Virus record (IMG/VR): IMGVR_UViG_3300031565_000491
Location: 1 to 20,106 of that record
From: a virus
Reading direction: 5' to 3' (one strand)
DNA: 20,106 nt
The notes beneath the pieces were generated by a model. It was not told the origin of the DNA, did no database searches, and saw only the letters and a list, made by a program, of their open reading frames with translations. The stretch's first letter is position 1; every line of letters begins with the position of its first letter. Positions 3,079 to 14,845 of the stretch are shown piece by piece. Position numbers and translations under genes: made by a program.

Positions 3079-5193
3079 ATGGAATTAAAAATACCAGCAT
3101 TTCCGATTCTTGAGCCTTTGTCGAAAGCCACACAAACTGCGTTGGCTCCACTTAATCTCTTGCCAGGAGATTTTCTTGAAATAGACGTAGATGAAAAAGA
3201 AGGTCAGCATTTTATGGTTCAAGCTGTTTGTCTTAAGAAGTGTCCAGCTAATGCATTACCAAGTATGGACGATGCAGCGATGCCAGCTTATGTGACAACT
3301 CCAGAAGGTGCATTCTACAAAGATGATAGTTTCTATCACTATCCAAGTTTCAGTGCATCATCCACTTGGTTCCATAGAATTCCAGAACGTTCTCAAAAAG
3401 GCTTTGGATTTTGGAGACTGGCTGGAACTGATTACACGGCTTTAATAATTCATCATGCTTGGCCGCACCATAAGTTAATTTTTAAATCAGAGCAAGCACA
3501 GCTTCTTTATACTTTTTTATTACGGAGATTTTTTGCTCAATCAAAAAATGCTACAATAGCTGCAGAGTTTAAGTTGTCCGGTAAAGTTCCTGAAATGCCA
3601 GAAGATTTTATAGAACATCCAAAACTCCCATTAACAGACTATCAAAAAACTGCATTATATATTAGTTTACGAAGCAGTGCATATTCTTTATTTATGGAGC
3701 AGGGAACTGGAAAAACGCCAGTCATTATAAATAAAATATGTTTAGCCGCAGCAAGAAAACGAGCCGCAAAAAAAGGAATGTACCGTGCATTAATAATTTG
3801 CCCTCAACAAGTTCGTTTGAATTGGGAACGAGAATTTATGAGATTCGCCACAGTTCCTGGAAAGACTTGTATTTTGCGTGGTGGAAATCTACAGAAAGTT
3901 AGGCGTCTTATCGACGCACTCAGGGATGAAGATGATTGTGCTTGGTCTGCTTGCATAATCTCTATCGATTCTGTCAACTCGATATGGGATGCGATAAAAC
4001 AATTACAATGGGATTTTGCTTGCATAGACGAGTCGCATAAAATTAAAAACCCATCAACTAATAGATTTAAAAACTTAGTGTTGCTCGATGATACACATGC
4101 AAAATCAAAAGAAATTTTAACTGGAACACCTATTAATAATTCACTTTTTGATTTATGGGCACAACTGGAATGGCTTGGAAAAGGCTTATCTGGATTTTCT
4201 ACGTTTGGTAATTTCAGAGCATTTCATGGAAAATGGGAGCAACAAATGCAAGGTGGTACTGGAGTAGCTAAACTGGTTGGATTTAAAAACATGCCACTTA
4301 TACAAGAACGACTTGCAAGACTATCATTTTTGTTCCGAAAAGAAGATATGAAAGGCGATTTAAGACTTCCTGAAAAAGTTTACGATGTTTATGAAGTGTC
4401 GATGAATTCGAAACAAGCTGAAATTTATAAACAAGTCGCTACAAAACTTGTTGCAGAAATTGATGAAATATTAGCTAATGCGGAAGAAAAAGGAACTCAA
4501 AATTTAACTGTCGAACATATCTTAACAAAATTAATTCGTTTAGCTCAAATTTGTTCTGGATTTGTAAAGTTAGATGACACGATTGATGAGATAAACGAAA
4601 TAATAATTAGAGGTAAAGAGATTCAAATTTCTGATCGAAATCCTAAAATTGATGCACTTATAAAAATAATAAGAGAAGACTGGGAAAATGATTCTAATAG
4701 TAAATGTGTAATTTGGGCTACATTTATTCCAGATATTATAGCCATTAGTTCACGACTTGCAAAGGAAGGTATAAATCATGTTGGCTATCATAAAGCAATA
4801 CAAGATATTTGTTATCGTGTAAAGGATTCAGCAGCAGCGGAAGATGTAATTAATCGCAATGATAGTTGTAGAGTCCTTATAGCTAATCCGGCCTCTGCTG
4901 GAATTGGTCAAAATTACTTGGGCTATAATGTAGATAAGCCGGAAGATTCGACGATGTACGTTAATCATCATATCTATTTCTCATGCAATTGGTCTGCAGT
5001 AGATAGAATACAAAGTGAAGATAGATCGCATCGTCGTGGAACGAGGACAAATTTACGGATAACAGATTTAATGATTCCATATACCATCGACCAAGAAATT
5101 AGAGACAGGGTAACGGACAAACGAAAAATGGCAATGTCCATCCAGGACATCAGAGAAATTCTTAACAGTGTATTGAAAGGATATAGAAGATAA
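3079..5193 (+). CDS. SNF2-type superfamily 2 helicase/ATPase
   Basis: A 704-residue DNA-dependent ATPase of the SNF2/SWI2 branch of helicase superfamily 2. The motifs occur in order: LTDYQ (about residue 185), Walker A EQGTGKT (207-213), Walker B DESH (317-320), LTGTP (347-351) and the C-terminal motif VI DRIQSEDRSHRRG (642-654), typical of SNF2 proteins. About 180 N-terminal residues precede the core and have no motif that I recognise. Both RecA-like lobes are complete, so the enzyme should be active. Phage SNF2 proteins are thought to remodel protein-DNA complexes or help replication and recombination; the exact job here is unknown. No strong ribosome binding site precedes ATG 3079, only four bases after the upstream stop, so translation is probably coupled. 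Confidence 0.95.
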   Translation: MELKIPAFPILEPLSKATQTALAPLNLLPGDFLEIDVDEKEGQHFMVQAVCLKKCPANALPSMDDAAMPAYVTTPEGAFYKDDSFYHYPSFSASSTWFHRIPERSQKGFGFWRLAGTDYTALIIHHAWPHHKLIFKSEQAQLLYTFLLRRFFAQSKNATIAAEFKLSGKVPEMPEDFIEHPKLPLTDYQKTALYISLRSSAYSLFMEQGTGKTPVIINKICLAAARKRAAKKGMYRALIICPQQVRLNWEREFMRFATVPGKTCILRGGNLQKVRRLIDALRDEDDCAWSACIISIDSVNSIWDAIKQLQWDFACIDESHKIKNPSTNRFKNLVLLDDTHAKSKEILTGTPINNSLFDLWAQLEWLGKGLSGFSTFGNFRAFHGKWEQQMQGGTGVAKLVGFKNMPLIQERLARLSFLFRKEDMKGDLRLPEKVYDVYEVSMNSKQAEIYKQVATKLVAEIDEILANAEEKGTQNLTVEHILTKLIRLAQICSGFVKLDDTIDEINEIIIRGKEIQISDRNPKIDALIKIIREDWENDSNSKCVIWATFIPDIIAISSRLAKEGINHVGYHKAIQDICYRVKDSAAAEDVINRNDSCRVLIANPASAGIGQNYLGYNVDKPEDSTMYVNHHIYFSCNWSAVDRIQSEDRSHRRGTRTNLRITDLMIPYTIDQEIRDRVTDKRKMAMSIQDIREILNSVLKGYRR

Positions 5194-9487: not shown

Positions 9488-9614
9488 ATGTAAGAGTTTA
9501 AAGAAATTTATACGGCCAAATTTATACTATCCAATAAAAGACTCTGAATTGTTAGAAGTGCAATATCTTAGTAGAAAAATGACCCCCACAAGAATTTATT
9601 ACAACAGCATGTAA
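9480..9614 (+). CDS. N-terminal part of a frameshifted protein
   Basis: A short frame from ATG 9480 to TAA 9612-9614. The first 36 residues (MNECKSLKKFIRPNLYYPIK and on to SRKMTP) look like a genuine N-terminus, whereas the last part after the CCCCC run (9583-9587) is an out-of-frame tail. Reading one base further on, the open frame continues as PQEFITTACNIIDNQNEIIE and on to 10170. I therefore treat this as the first exon-like piece of one ~229-residue gene interrupted by an extra C. It overlaps the previous gene's end, with no clear ribosome binding site. Confidence 0.55.
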   Translation: MNECKSLKKFIRPNLYYPIKDSELLEVQYLSRKMTPTRIYYNSM

Positions 9615-10170
9615 TATAATTGATAATCAAAACGAGATTATTGAGGCAGTTAATACTGAAAATAATGCACTTAGACGGCCTGCTGAAGTTAATGGCTTCA
9701 ATAGTAATGGTTTATTAGCAGTTGGGCAAAAGCTTATTGATAATGACTTAGAAATTGAGCGTATTAATACAGAGAATGCAAAAATAAAGAAGTGCCCTAA
9801 ATGTGGCGGATCTGAAATAGAGATTTTCGTTGACAAAGTTAATTTTGGTTGTGGTGATATATACGCACCTGTTCATAAATGCGAATGTGGATTCAAATGG
9901 ACTGACGATATTGCAGCGGAAGTTTATCAAAAGAATAAAGAATTAATCGACGCGGCAAGTTGCAGCATTTCAAAAGATAGTGTCGAATGGCTTAAGATTT
10001 ATTTCAAACTTTATAATACTGGCGATGTTGGCAGAATCTTACATCCTGCCATGAAACAATTTAGAGCAGAATTGCAAGCAGATGAAAAACTCGACAATCC
10101 AGTATTGCAAGATCTAAATATATGTTCATGGTGCATTAAGAAAGCATTAGAATGTTCGAGTCTTAAATGA
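9583..10170 (+). CDS. C-terminal part of the frameshifted gene, with zinc ribbon
   Basis: This 588-base stretch is open in one frame and lacks an ATG near its 5' end, so ordinary gene finders may miss it. The protein has a polar helical part (NIIDNQNEIIEAVNTENNAL and on), then KKCPKCGGSEIEI and HKCECGFKWTDD, two Cys pairs forming a zinc ribbon that resembles the layout of Lar-type restriction-alleviation proteins; that link is weak. A helical C-terminus follows (WLKIYFKLYNTGDVGRILHP, then AELQADEK, ICSWCIKKALEC). Joined to 9480-9614 by removing one C it gives a ~229-residue protein. The stop overlaps the next start (ATGA at 10167-10170). Confidence 0.7.
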   Translation, partial: PPQEFITTACNIIDNQNEIIEAVNTENNALRRPAEVNGFNSNGLLAVGQKLIDNDLEIERINTENAKIKKCPKCGGSEIEIFVDKVNFGCGDIYAPVHKCECGFKWTDDIAAEVYQKNKELIDAASCSISKDSVEWLKIYFKLYNTGDVGRILHPAMKQFRAELQADEKLDNPVLQDLNICSWCIKKALECSSLK

Positions 10171-10799: not shown

Positions 10800-10800
10800 C

Positions 10801-10923
10801 ATGGAATTTCTAAACTTAATACGAGCGTTGGCCGGAACAGGCTGCAATATTGTCATTCTATACATTTTGATTTTATTGTGTAAGAAGATGAAAAAGTGGA
10901 CTGATAAAAATGAAAATAAATAA
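10801..10923 (+). CDS. small single-span membrane protein, 40 residues
   Basis: A short frame from ATG 10801 to TAA 10921-10923, directly after the DUF4326 gene. The protein has one hydrophobic segment (CNIVILYILILLC, residues 15-27) followed by a basic cluster (KKMKKWTDKNENK), the positive-inside arrangement of a small inner-membrane protein. AGAGAAC upstream is a weak ribosome binding site. The last codons lie in the left copy of a 20-bp direct repeat that recurs at 11105. Function unknown. Confidence 0.6.
   Translation: MEFLNLIRALAGTGCNIVILYILILLCKKMKKWTDKNENK
10890..10909 (+). repeat. direct repeat, left copy
   Basis: GAAAAAGTGGACTGATAAAA, 19 of 20 bases identical to 11105-11124 (C against A at the twelfth base). 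Here it lies in the 3' end of the 40-residue gene. The two copies bracket the structured element at 10923-11076, as a duplication made on insertion might; similarity continues more loosely as A/T-rich ATAAATA strings. Confidence 0.75.
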
Positions 10924-11076
10924 TATTTGAAATGCTGACAGTAGCGTGTGAACGTAAAGACCAGCAGCGGTCTTGGTTGAGTTCCCATATTGAATCGCTG
11001 ACTGAAATTCGATATATGAATAGGCTCAGTAAAGTATCATGCAAGTTAAAATCTTGCCTGTTGGTATTTCAGATGT
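10923..11076 (+). ncRNA. candidate structured RNA with a long closing stem
   Basis: This 154-base stretch has no gene but strong pairing potential. The ends, 10923-10940 and 11059-11076, can form 18 consecutive pairs, five of them G-U, which fits RNA better than DNA symmetry. Inside are four hairpins: GCGT-GTGA-ACGT (10944-10955, a GNRA loop), AAGACC-GGTCTT (10957-10974), a bulged arm from 10979 to 11027 built from GAG/CTC, CC/GG, CATAT/ATATG and GAAT/ATTC, and GCAAG-TTAAAAT-CTTGC (11041-11057). The last has a T-arm-like 5-bp stem and 7-base loop but lacks the conserved C. The whole is a closed multi-branch structure. I recognise no known RNA family. It lies between two genes on the same strand, flanked by 20-bp direct repeats. 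Confidence 0.6.
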
Positions 11077-11104
11077 ATATTAACTAAAATTTGAGTAGAC
11101 AAAC

Positions 11105-11124
11105 GAAAAAGTGGAATGATAAAA
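11105..11124 (+). repeat. direct repeat, right copy
   Basis: GAAAAAGTGGAATGATAAAA, matching 10890-10909 with one difference. This copy is noncoding and lies about 30 bases before the next ribosome binding site (AGAGGAGAAG). A 195-base interval holding the structured element separates the copies. Confidence 0.75.
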
Positions 11125-11152
11125 TAAATCATAAATAAACAGAGGAGAAGAG

Positions 11153-11344
11153 ATGGATGATATTGTAAAGAATGCTGTTACATGTAGAATTTGCCAAAGC
11201 CCTGCAGATTTGCATAACGGAAATATCTATATATGCCAAAGTAATCCAAATCATATTGGCGATACTATGATTAGTATGTTTACTGATATGACTTATAATC
11301 CTGTTCAAGTACAACATGAAAAAGAAAAAACAAAAACCAGTTAA
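11153..11344 (+). CDS. small zinc-ribbon-like protein, 63 residues
   Basis: ATG 11153 follows AGAGGAGAAGAG, a strong ribosome binding site. The protein has C11-R-I-C14 (VTCRICQSPADLHNG) and then YICQSNPNHIGD, so CxxC with a later Cys and His, a common small zinc-binding pattern. A lysine-rich tail follows (EKEKTKTS). First gene after the structured RNA element. Its last 29 bases overlap the next gene. No family recognised. Confidence 0.7.
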   Translation: MDDIVKNAVTCRICQSPADLHNGNIYICQSNPNHIGDTMISMFTDMTYNPVQVQHEKEKTKTS

Positions 11345-12318: not shown

Positions 12319-12586
12319 TCAAAAGATACTGCTTAAAGGTATTGTAGCTGATTATAAAAAAGACGCTAAAACAAAAGGTATAATGGTTGATAAAGAACAC
12401 GAAGATGCTTTCATGGAACTTTTAGAAACTATTGATTCCAGTAGTATGAATCAAAAAGAAATAGTAAGAAAGTTAGTGAAGTTTATCATACATCAATTTA
12501 TATCGAAGCCGCTTGTACAAAAAGCCATCGCACTTTATAAAAATGAAACTAATAAGTTTGAAACTAAAACGGAGAATGAAGAATGA
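12302..12586 (+). CDS. helical hypothetical protein, 94 residues
   Basis: ATG 12302 (or ATG 12308) lies inside the end of the preceding gene, with GGGGAA just upstream. The protein is mostly helical and charged (DINQKILLKGIVADYKKDAK, then EDAFMELLETIDSSSMNQKE, then IVRKLVKFIIHQFISKPLVQ). I recognise no family. The acidic tail (KTENEE) encodes the ribosome binding site for the next gene, whose start overlaps the stop (ATGA). Confidence 0.7.
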   Translation: MAMDINQKILLKGIVADYKKDAKTKGIMVDKEHEDAFMELLETIDSSSMNQKEIVRKLVKFIIHQFISKPLVQKAIALYKNETNKFETKTENEE

Positions 12587-13287
12587 AAATAGCACAATCA
12601 TGTCAGAGTTGTAAAGAGTTTTTTATCACAGAGGTGCGGCTTAATATTTGTCCATTTTGTGAAAAGGTTATTCCTGAAAAGCCAAAAAGTCCTGATACGA
12701 AACAAGTTAAACTTCCAGATGTTCTCGAAGCGTTCGTTGGTGAGCCATCAACTGATGTTATAAAAGAATTTGTTAATGTGAGGGAACAAGTTCAGCTTCT
12801 TTATAATTTGGTCTATGGATTTCTGGCCAAAAACAACGAGCTTATTAAATCCAAACAACTTAAGAATGAAGAACTTTGTGATTTTGGTTTTATTTGCCGT
12901 GAGCTTGAAAACATATTAGACGAGTTACGAAAAGAAGTAAAGGCCAGAAAAGAACTTTGTGGAAGCATTATAGCTTATCGCTTAGTGCAAGCATCAATAC
13001 AAGACCCATCTATTAAAATGAAAGTACAAGGGCAATTCGCATCTGGTACTCCAGATGTAAAGATGCAAGCCGCACTACCACATAAATTTACAGATGAGTA
13101 TTATCAGATTACAGATTATCTTAAAGTTCCTCGTGACGTTGCGTCGTCCGGTGTATTACGTCTTGACTGGAAACAAGTAACAGAATTTTTAACAAAACGA
13201 ATGAATGAAGGAAAAGAAATTCCACCTGGATTTGGAAAACAATATCCATTATACACAACAACTTATCGCAAACGAAAGGTGAAATAA
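12583..13287 (+). CDS. zinc-ribbon protein with helical body, 234 residues
   Basis: The start overlaps the previous stop by four bases, behind CGGAGAATGAAG. Residues 7-26 form a zinc ribbon, C7-Q-S-C10 (SCQSCKEFF) and C23-P-F-C26 (ICPFCEKVI). A long helical region follows (FVNVREQVQLLYNLVYGFLA, ELENILDELRKEVKARKELC) and a C-terminal part with DWKQVTEFLTKRMNEGKEIP and a basic end (TYRKRKVK). No family recognised. It is the last gene before the unusual leader at 13288 and lies directly upstream of the SSB-like gene, so a replication role is possible. Confidence 0.75.
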   Translation: MKIAQSCQSCKEFFITEVRLNICPFCEKVIPEKPKSPDTKQVKLPDVLEAFVGEPSTDVIKEFVNVREQVQLLYNLVYGFLAKNNELIKSKQLKNEELCDFGFICRELENILDELRKEVKARKELCGSIIAYRLVQASIQDPSIKMKVQGQFASGTPDVKMQAALPHKFTDEYYQITDYLKVPRDVASSGVLRLDWKQVTEFLTKRMNEGKEIPPGFGKQYPLYTTTYRKRKVK

Positions 13288-13566
13288 TAAATAACTTCAT
13301 AATGAAAGTATTAATATCGAGATAAGACTTTAATCTACTCATTATGAATGAAAGGAGGGAAAATAAAATGTGAAGTTAAATGATAGATTATAAGAAAATT
13401 GAAAGATTAAAAGATTAAAGATAAGCTGGAGAATTATATTATGATAATGAAAGGAGGAAAATCAAATGCGTCCGAGTTTAAAAAACTCAACTTTGTGATT
13501 TAAGAATTAAGAATCAATAAATTAAAATTAACGAATTAAAAACTTTTTGAATTGGAGAATTAAAAA
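13288..13566 (+). promoter_or_regulatory. leader of the SSB-like gene with duplicated ribosome binding sites and mini-ORFs
   Basis: A 279-base A/T-rich stretch with no long gene. It starts with a perfect 10-bp inverted repeat, TTCATAATGA (13296-13305) and TCATTATGAA (13339-13348). Next is AATGAAAGGAGGGAAAATAAAATG ending 13370, where a perfect Shine-Dalgarno is followed by ATG TGA, a start codon followed directly by a stop. The block recurs at 13448-13468 (AATGAAAGGAGGAAAATCAAATG), leading into a 10-codon ORF, MRPSLKNSTL and TGA (13466-13498). Inside that ORF GAGTTT and AAACTC (13474-13488) form a hairpin. A 20-codon frame, 13441-13503, overlaps it. Several GAATTAA strings precede the true site GGAGAATTAAAAA. 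It looks like translational control of the gene at 13567. Confidence 0.6.
13466..13498 (+). CDS. candidate 10-residue leader peptide
   Basis: ATG 13466 sits five bases after the strong AAAGGAGG (13450-13457) and encodes MRPSLKNSTL before TGA. The ORF contains the GAGTTT/AAACTC hairpin. The near-identical preceding block has a start codon followed at once by a stop. Such short, strongly initiated frames usually regulate a downstream gene by ribosome occupancy. It is too short to prove coding by composition. Confidence 0.35.
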   Translation: MRPSLKNSTL

Positions 13567-14439
13567 ATGAGTGATGAGACAAAGAATGGCGGCGGTGGTT
13601 TAGCGTCGCGAAATGAAACTGCAATTAATAAAGTTGCGGTTAATCCAGATTATTTAGCTAAGTATATTGAACAAGACGAGAGTTTAAATGCCCTTAAAGA
13701 ACACAGAACAGTCCCACGTTTTAAGATTGTTCAGCCAACATCTGACGACGATCTCGTAACTAATTTTGGCAGGGGTACTGTTATCGTTCGCCCAGGTGAT
13801 GCAATGATTTGTAAACATAATGAAGAGCCTAAATCATTTCATTTTGTTCCTTTGTTCTTTTTTGTCGAGTGGAACAAATGGCGTGACTTAAAAGGCACAG
13901 GCCCAATGGTTTTAGAGCGGTCTCATGATCCATCAAGTAAAATTGCATTAAAGTCAAAAAGTGCTGATACTCGAAAAGAAGTCTATGAAGGTCAAGAGAA
14001 CATGCTTGAAAAAGATAGGCTATATTATTCGTATGTTGAACACCTTCGCTTTATTGGCGTAATTTATGGCGATCATCCGCTCGTCGGAACTCCTGTAACA
14101 CTTTCTTTTGAAAGAGGCGAGTGGGGACAAGGAAAGAATTTCATATCTGCTGTTTCGCTTAGGAGACAAATAATAAACAATGAGTCTGAACAAGTCCCTC
14201 TTTGGGCACAAGTTTGGAAATTGTCAACATTATTCCATAATCCAGAACCATCGAAAAAATGGTATGGATTTAAATTTTCATCTCCTGAACAATCGATTAT
14301 TTTACCAGATGAAGCAGATACCATGCAAAAACTTCATTTAGAGTTCAAAGATTTGTACGAGAAATCACGTCTAATGGTAATCGACGAAGAAATTACAGAC
14401 CCTGATGAAGCATCTGTAAAAGCAAATCAAGATTTTTAA
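13567..14439 (+). CDS. putative single-strand DNA-binding protein, phage type
   Basis: This 290-residue protein starts at ATG 13567 behind GGAGAATTAAAAA. It has a Gly-rich N-terminus, a central mixed-beta region (IKKVQ-like strands: RFKIVQPTSDDDLVTNFG, GTVIVRPGDAM, FHFVPLFFFVEWNKWRD, then TPVTLSFERGEWGQG) and an acidic C-terminal tail ending in Phe (EEITDPDEASVKANQDF). A beta core with an acidic, Phe-terminated tail is the hallmark of phage SSBs such as T7 gp2.5. I do not see a definitive OB-fold motif, so the call rests on architecture and on position between the zinc-ribbon gene and the kinase, deaminase and polymerase genes. It could instead be another uncharacterised phage replication protein. 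A small hairpin, CAGC-GAAA-GCTG, follows the stop (14446-14457). Confidence 0.6.
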   Translation: MSDETKNGGGGLASRNETAINKVAVNPDYLAKYIEQDESLNALKEHRTVPRFKIVQPTSDDDLVTNFGRGTVIVRPGDAMICKHNEEPKSFHFVPLFFFVEWNKWRDLKGTGPMVLERSHDPSSKIALKSKSADTRKEVYEGQENMLEKDRLYYSYVEHLRFIGVIYGDHPLVGTPVTLSFERGEWGQGKNFISAVSLRRQIINNESEQVPLWAQVWKLSTLFHNPEPSKKWYGFKFSSPEQSIILPDEADTMQKLHLEFKDLYEKSRLMVIDEEITDPDEASVKANQDF

Positions 14440-14501: not shown

Positions 14502-14585
14502 ATGGATTTTGTGATGATCCTAAATTTAGCTGCGATTATAAATATCGATGATGGTATTGCGTCCAGATATGCTTGCTTATTATAA
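14502..14585 (+). CDS. very small candidate protein, 27 residues
   Basis: ATG 14502 lies eight bases after a perfect AAGGAG (14489-14494) and reads MDFVMILNLAAIINIDDGIA to RYACLL and TAA at 14583-14585. The hydrophobic N-terminal half could form a short membrane helix. Its coding sequence overlaps the left arm of the origin-like inverted repeat at 14540, so the ribosome binding site may matter more than the product. Evidence is the ribosome binding site alone. Confidence 0.4.
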   Translation: MDFVMILNLAAIINIDDGIASRYACLL

Positions 14586-14640: not shown

Positions 14641-14724
14641 AATATCAATATCAATATCAATATCAATATCAATATCAATATCAATATCAATATCAATATC
14701 AATATCAATATCAATATCAATATT
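14641..14724 (+). repeat. hexanucleotide tandem repeat, 13 copies
   Basis: Thirteen perfect copies of AATATC run from 14641 to 14718, followed by one imperfect unit, AATATT. The array encodes (Ile-Ser)n on the + strand and (Asp-Ile)n on the other, but no ribosome binding site or conserved gene supports translation. Tandem arrays this regular often vary in copy number between isolates. The unit also occurs in the flanking 12-bp inverted repeat (AAATATC), which suggests a protein-binding iteron or a melting tract. Confidence 0.9.
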
Positions 14725-14845
14725 AATTATTAGTGATGGCGCATCATGGCCAGATGTGTGTTGCAAATAAAATAAATAAATGGCTGCCAATGAAGCATCA
14801 AAACGCCTGAGCAACTTTCCATCACTTATTTATTGGAGAAACATA

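Follow-up and report, generated by a model that had tools for sequence, protein, structure and literature searches.

A viral leader with two strong Shine-Dalgarno sites and very short open reading frames upstream of an SSB-like gene, possibly a ribosome-landing element

Leaders that combine a strong Shine-Dalgarno (SD) sequence with a mini-ORF have been described for LEE4 espADB (6 codons), LEE1 ler (2 codons) and axe-txe (2 codons) (PMC8708949). Leaders of this kind, with mini-ORFs of 2 to 6 codons, increase expression of the downstream gene, probably because AU-rich RNA is protected against ribonucleases, and in the case of LEE4 occupancy of the SD is sufficient and the peptide irrelevant (PMC8708949). 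STAB-SD is an mRNA stabilizer of similar action (PMC4113751), and the aprE leader appears as another in work cited in PMC3997798. For AUGUGA sequences in E. coli, termination at UGA followed by reinitiation at GUG is described (PMC9841429). In the operator of T4 gene 32, a pseudoknot precedes an unstructured stretch whose UUAAA/UAAA repeats cover the ribosome site (PMC535899, PMC3014915). The locus presented here had originally been predicted to match no described system in its exact arrangement. This is literally true, but the strong-SD mini-ORF leaders with 2–6 codons (PMC8708949) are a described class.

The window, i.e. the whole stretch of DNA that was analyzed, is a virus record of 20.1 kb (20,106 nt; IMG/VR IMGVR_UViG_3300031565_000491), called W in comparisons with relatives. 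ORF and family searches place a SNF2-type helicase gene at 3079–5193 (+ strand), and further genes on the + strand are a kinase-like gene, a deaminase and a family A DNA polymerase. The leader is a gap of 279 nt flanked by two genes of the phage replication module. On its 5′ side lies gene X (12583–13287, + strand), an ORF of 234 aa with a CxxC...CxxC N-terminus that ends where the leader begins; on its 3′ side lies a Pam3 gp34-like gene (13567–14439, + strand; Pfam PF23977, E 6.7e-10; OB-fold model), here called SSB-like. This adjacency is conserved in relatives, and the location of leader and SSB-like gene side by side on the same strand suggests that they are co-transcribed. Gene X has no match in Pfam or PHROG, and its structure model is poor (pLDDT 57). 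Rfam 15 returned no RNA family at gathering score across the window, and sigma-70-like sites occur at chance frequency over its whole length.

IMG/VR protein searches yielded 13 distinct relatives with 56–78% identity, together with L018, which shares its leader sequence with L017. Searching with the gene X alignment as query retrieved no contig beyond those already found, the DNA of the 7.5-kb neighborhood matched none of 50,697 phage records, and a scan of genome contigs contained no relatives. Two further gaps in the window, 9488–10166 (679 nt) and 10800–11315 (516 nt), lie outside the ORF set used, which is unusual for a compact phage genome; the second is overlapped by smaller ORFs, e.g. 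at 11153–11344. A 340-nt gap 3′ of the SSB-like gene holds 14.5 copies of AATATC (14641–14727, 98% matches), as well as AAGGAG with a 27-codon ORF at 14502.

Within the leader, two blocks, AATGAAAGGAGGGAAAATAAA (13347–13367) and AATGAAAGGAGGAAAATCAAA (13446–13466), are 86% identical over 21 nt and 99 nt apart. Each contains AAGGAGG on the + strand (13352–13358, within GAAAGGAGGG, and 13451–13457), and every element of the duplicated SD block that had been predicted is found in its place. These are the only two AAGGAGG in the 20.1-kb window; they precede the SSB start by 215 and 116 nt, and each lies 8–9 nt 5′ of an ATG with a tiny ORF. None of 4000 dinucleotide shuffles produced two such AAGGAGG, ATG and short-ORF sites in the leader. 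Computed anti-SD pairing of the mini-ORF sites (−12.1 and −11.6 kcal/mol) is the best of any start in the window, where 29 ORFs have a median of −6.0 and a best value of −9.8 kcal/mol, and the SD of the SSB-like gene itself, GGAG (13554–13557, + strand), is weaker (−6.4 kcal/mol). Alignment of the two blocks scores 41 against a shuffle maximum of 38 (n = 500), with the excess confined to the part from SD to ATG. Block 2 and block 1 are likely related by duplication, though this is not proven, as their likeness lies largely in what is common to all strong ribosome sites.

This data may suggest that the leader consists of ribosome-landing mini-ORFs which protect or tune the SSB message, the reading we favor, to which we assign a probability of about 0.4. 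Ribosomes loading at the very strong SDs would, after one to eleven codons, either leave or load again. A parked or fast-cycling ribosome would then most likely shield the long AU-rich spacer from ribonucleases, and such shielding could keep the polycistronic message intact or set the amount of SSB that is made. As in 5′ mRNA stabilizers, a strong SD-like sequence is present that does not serve the main gene, and as in mini-ORF leaders, a strong SD with a very short ORF lies 5′ of a downstream gene. The surroundings of the mini-ORFs are AU-rich, with an A/T-rich spacer and a heptad array (see below). We file the leader under the strong-SD mini-ORF type because of its strong SDs, variable ORF content, AU-rich spacer and a hairpin before the SD.

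This hairpin is AT-rich and lies just 5′ of the first SD (13296–13348, + strand). It corresponds to the 10-bp inverted repeat reported before, with the perfect arms TTCATAATGA (13296–13305) and TCATTATGAA (13339–13348) and a computed fold of −13.1 kcal/mol. Behind block 1 stands ATGTGA (13368–13373, + strand), a start followed at once by a stop as had been predicted. That it has no coding sense is too strong a statement, since the same letters hold a GTG that opens an alternative ORF of 7 codons (13370–13393, + strand), an AUGUGA overlap for which there is precedent (PMC9841429). The start-stop resembles the mini-ORF of L016–L018. Block 1, ATGTGAAGTTAA, aligns to ATGAGAAATTAA of L016, with AGA turned into TGA after the GAAAGGAGG common to both; the alignment scores 42, just short of the highest value among shuffles (43, n = 200). 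Probably the start-stop is a further variant in length, namely the three-codon mini-ORF of the relatives with its second codon turned into a stop, and the L016 alignment behind this reading is suggestive only.

A scan of phage contigs for GAAAGGAGG-N5-9-ATGTGA returned 119 sites, comprising 85 GTG gene starts, 18 positions within ORFs, 5 other starts and 11 noncoding sites. Since most of them are GTG starts or lie in ORFs, the motif says little by itself. Among other viral contigs, GAAAGGAGG and a noncoding ATGTGA start-stop occur in L042, L045, L104, L136; L046, L050; L065; L069, L114; and L074, L153, some of which carry identical sequence. Recoding of TGA was considered and dropped; 7 of the 36 listed window ORFs terminate in TGA.

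The second block leads, as anticipated, to a 10-codon mini-ORF, MRPSLKNSTL* (13466–13498, + strand), which contains a 6-bp hairpin, GAGTTT-AAA-AAACTC (GAGTTTAAAAAACTC; 13474–13488, + strand; −4.1 kcal/mol). Its first 25 nt, hairpin included, are identical at 24 of 25 positions (96%) to the mini-ORF of L001, MRLSLKNSIKN*; the sequence past these 25 nt and the position of the stop differ. In view of the fourfold-degenerate sites of the next gene, at which W and L001 agree in 45 of 89 cases, the 25 nt look selected. This points to selection on the RNA of SD, start and hairpin rather than on the whole peptide, although the identity could also stem from lineages having recently exchanged this segment. 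Scanning viral contigs for the hairpin pattern of the mini-ORF gave three matches besides L001, all in seemingly unrelated coding sequence.

A short ORF with an internal hairpin, conserved in L001 over its first 25 nt, might also act through its peptide, if translation of the 10 codons altered the RNA fold or transcription and thereby controlled the SSB gene. We regard such sensing or attenuation as very unlikely. The peptides of most relatives differ beyond the initial M-R, and no Rfam family is present; by fold computation, the ribosome site of the SSB gene is, in the untranslated RNA, about half unpaired and not firmly sequestered, which leaves no clear on/off fold. No terminator-like site or hairpin was found in the leader, and transcription attenuation was dropped for that reason. 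Neither a conserved peptide nor a terminator or SD-sequestering alternative fold of the trp/erm type is seen. The original prediction had offered "parking or sensing" as alternatives; of these, sensing through a leader peptide finds no backing in these results, and parking is the better supported part, given that SD and ATG recur in five relatives with varying peptides and that a gp32-like OB-fold is encoded downstream.

A strong SD, ATG and mini-ORF occur, in one copy each, in the same slot, between the two flanking genes, of five further distinct relatives: L001 (AAGGAGG, MRLSLKNSIKN*, 11 codons), L002 (AAGGAG, MNKK*, 4 codons), L015 (AAGGAG, MRR*, 3 codons), L016 (AAGGAGG, MRN*, 3 codons) and L017 (AAGGAG, MRN*, 3 codons; likewise L018). 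L003 and L005 have ORFs of 36 and 45 aa right behind the SD at the end of gene X, and L005 an out-of-frame MRS* in addition; L004, L006 and L007 keep an SD-like stretch with no clear ORF, and the mini-ORF arrangement is absent from the slot in L020 and L021. Beyond the slot, the loci of L001, L002 and L015–L017 contain no AAGGAG-class noncoding mini-ORFs, the exception in the window being the 27-codon ORF at 14502. Across relatives, SD and ATG are kept, and the peptides vary in sequence and length, with mostly only the initial M-R in common. Probably it is the landing site for ribosomes that counts, and not the peptide. This recurrence is not fully independent because of common descent. L001 has a different perfect hairpin of 11 bp 5′ of its mini-ORF SD. 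Besides its absence from L020 and L021 and the bare SD-like stretches of L004, L006 and L007, a point against ribosome landing is that the mini-ORFs of L002, L015, L016 and L017 begin directly at, or beside, the stop of the preceding ORF, like an ordinary small gene.

Directly upstream of the SSB-like gene, between it and the mini-ORF, L015, L016 and L017 share a conserved promoter-like TTGCGT-N16-TATAAT (TATAGT in L017). Its counterpart in L020 is TTGCCT-N17-TATAAT, and none was seen in W, L001 and L002.

Small genes of phages have a rapid turnover, and the mini-ORFs may be no more than functionless starts that outlived decayed genes of the slot. Small genes are found behind gene X in L001, L002, L003, L005 and L016; the 36- and 45-aa ORFs of L003 and L005 stand behind the same SD; the 70-aa slot gene of L001 has a homologue in L002 (about 4660–4880) with an in-frame TAG; and the SD-like stretches of L004, L006 and L007 have no clear ORF. 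However, the window leader has no detectable similarity to the small proteins of its neighbors. Neutral decay should moreover erode AAGGAGG at sites that are about 50% diverged, yet two intact copies are present, and the 25-nt block common to W and L001 is 96% identical. On balance we consider decay a rather doubtful explanation. The in-frame TAG of L002 is due either to breakage of the gene or to faulty assembly. In L003 and L005 the small ORFs have ends resembling the C-terminal tail of L021 gene X (507–1178), with ...GTD/STD; from this likeness, gene X seems to be split or fused in different phages.

The three-codon forms ATG AGA AAT/AGA TAA of L015–L018 fit the class of short strong-SD minigenes (PMC8708949). 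As with lambda bar, they might act in trans by sequestering tRNA, with peptidyl-tRNA drop-off slowing host translation. We think this extremely unlikely for the leader, as the window copies are an M-stop and a 10-codon ORF containing CGT, and tested leader minigenes reportedly work in cis (PMC8708949).

The nature of the downstream protein bears on a further alternative. The AlphaFold2 model of the SSB-like protein (pLDDT 80.8) is an OB-fold, which VIA-align relates to the phiC31 RDF protein (Z 7.2), the T4 gp32 core (6.3) and RB69 gp32 (6.0). Against gp32 structures Z is 6.3/6.0/5.1 at an rmsd of 4.6–5.9, a range (Z <8) that can reflect a common arrangement according to the tool. Foldseek returned no PDB matches below E 0.001, and matches below this threshold in BFVD carry no functional name. 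Resemblance of the OB-fold model to T4/RB69 gp32 at Z 6.0–6.3 lends moderate support to the SSB-like reading of the gene at 13567, as originally proposed. Its product may be a gp32-type SSB, with nucleic-acid binding suggested by the fold at a middling Z.

A degenerate GAAYTAA array with a 7-nt period extends between mini-ORF 2 and the SSB ribosome site (about 13500–13560, + strand); it was overlooked before and is also present in L001 and L002. The lag-7 match of W, L001 and L002 is 0.43, 0.58 and 0.57 (shuffles 0.33, 0.31 and 0.36), a value reached by 36, 0 and 0 of 1000 shuffles, respectively; the heptad of W is weak. In all three loci the array is the highest lag-7 window. TTAA occurs 7 times in W against 2.6 expected (3 of 1000 shuffles), whereas L001 is not enriched. 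As 7 is not a multiple of 3, the TAA of the array stops all three frames.

A gp32 monomer covers about 7 nt. The SSB might nucleate at a hairpin of its leader, polymerize on the heptad array and cover its own ribosome site, so that repression sets in when free SSB exceeds single-stranded DNA; ribosomes at the mini-ORFs would then bound the filament or compete with it. For such an autogenous operator speak the array in W, L001 and L002 with the TTAA excess in W, the gp32-like model of the downstream protein, and the precedent of UUAAA/UAAA repeats over the T4 ribosome site (PMC535899, PMC3014915). On the other hand, the array is absent in L015–L020 and weak in W, slippage of simple repeats could account for its identity, and nucleic-acid binding is read from a fold of middling Z. 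Self-repression of this kind appears unlikely as the whole explanation; nevertheless it is the main functional rival and a serious one, or else a partner mechanism. A heptad array before a gp32-like gene would, if true, offer a functional counterpart to the T4 gene 32 operator that can be put to the test. A combination of both is conceivable but quite improbable, in which SSB would polymerize on the array with one monomer per 7-nt repeat, parked mini-ORF ribosomes would bound the filament and protect the message, and ribosome loading and free SSB would compete.

If ribosome landing at the mini-ORFs is the correct reading, strong-SD mini-ORF leaders, described so far in a few operons of bacteria, would also serve replication genes of phages, and the natural variants in length (1, 3, 4, 10 and 11 codons) would separate the role of ribosome binding from that of translation.

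Compared with known systems, the leader shares with LEE4, LEE1 and axe-txe a strong SD, an ORF no longer than about ten codons, and an AU-rich leader 5′ of the regulated gene. It would differ from them, judging by the sequence, in its two tandem copies, one of them a start-stop, placed between phage replication-module genes with an SSB-like gene downstream. With the AUGUG ambiguous start sites of E. coli it has in common that a ribosome terminating at UGA in the AUGUGA of block 1 can reinitiate at GUG; in most phage matches (85 of 119) the GUG is the start of a real gene, whereas in the window it opens 7 codons. Block 1 holds GAAAGGAGGG, the STAB-SD core. Like cry3A STAB-SD and B. subtilis aprE, the leader has a strong SD that is not used for the gene, and like aprE a hairpin beside the SD; STAB-SD and aprE sit near the mature 5′ end and block RNase J1, whereas here an ATG follows the SD. 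With the gene 32 operator of T4 and RB69 it may share its position in the leader of a putative gp32-like SSB and an AU-rich stretch of UUAA repeats running into the ribosome site, besides an upstream fold. It differs in the 7-nt period of the array and in the strong-SD mini-ORFs, which to our knowledge have no counterpart in T4, and the folds computed here are nested ones.
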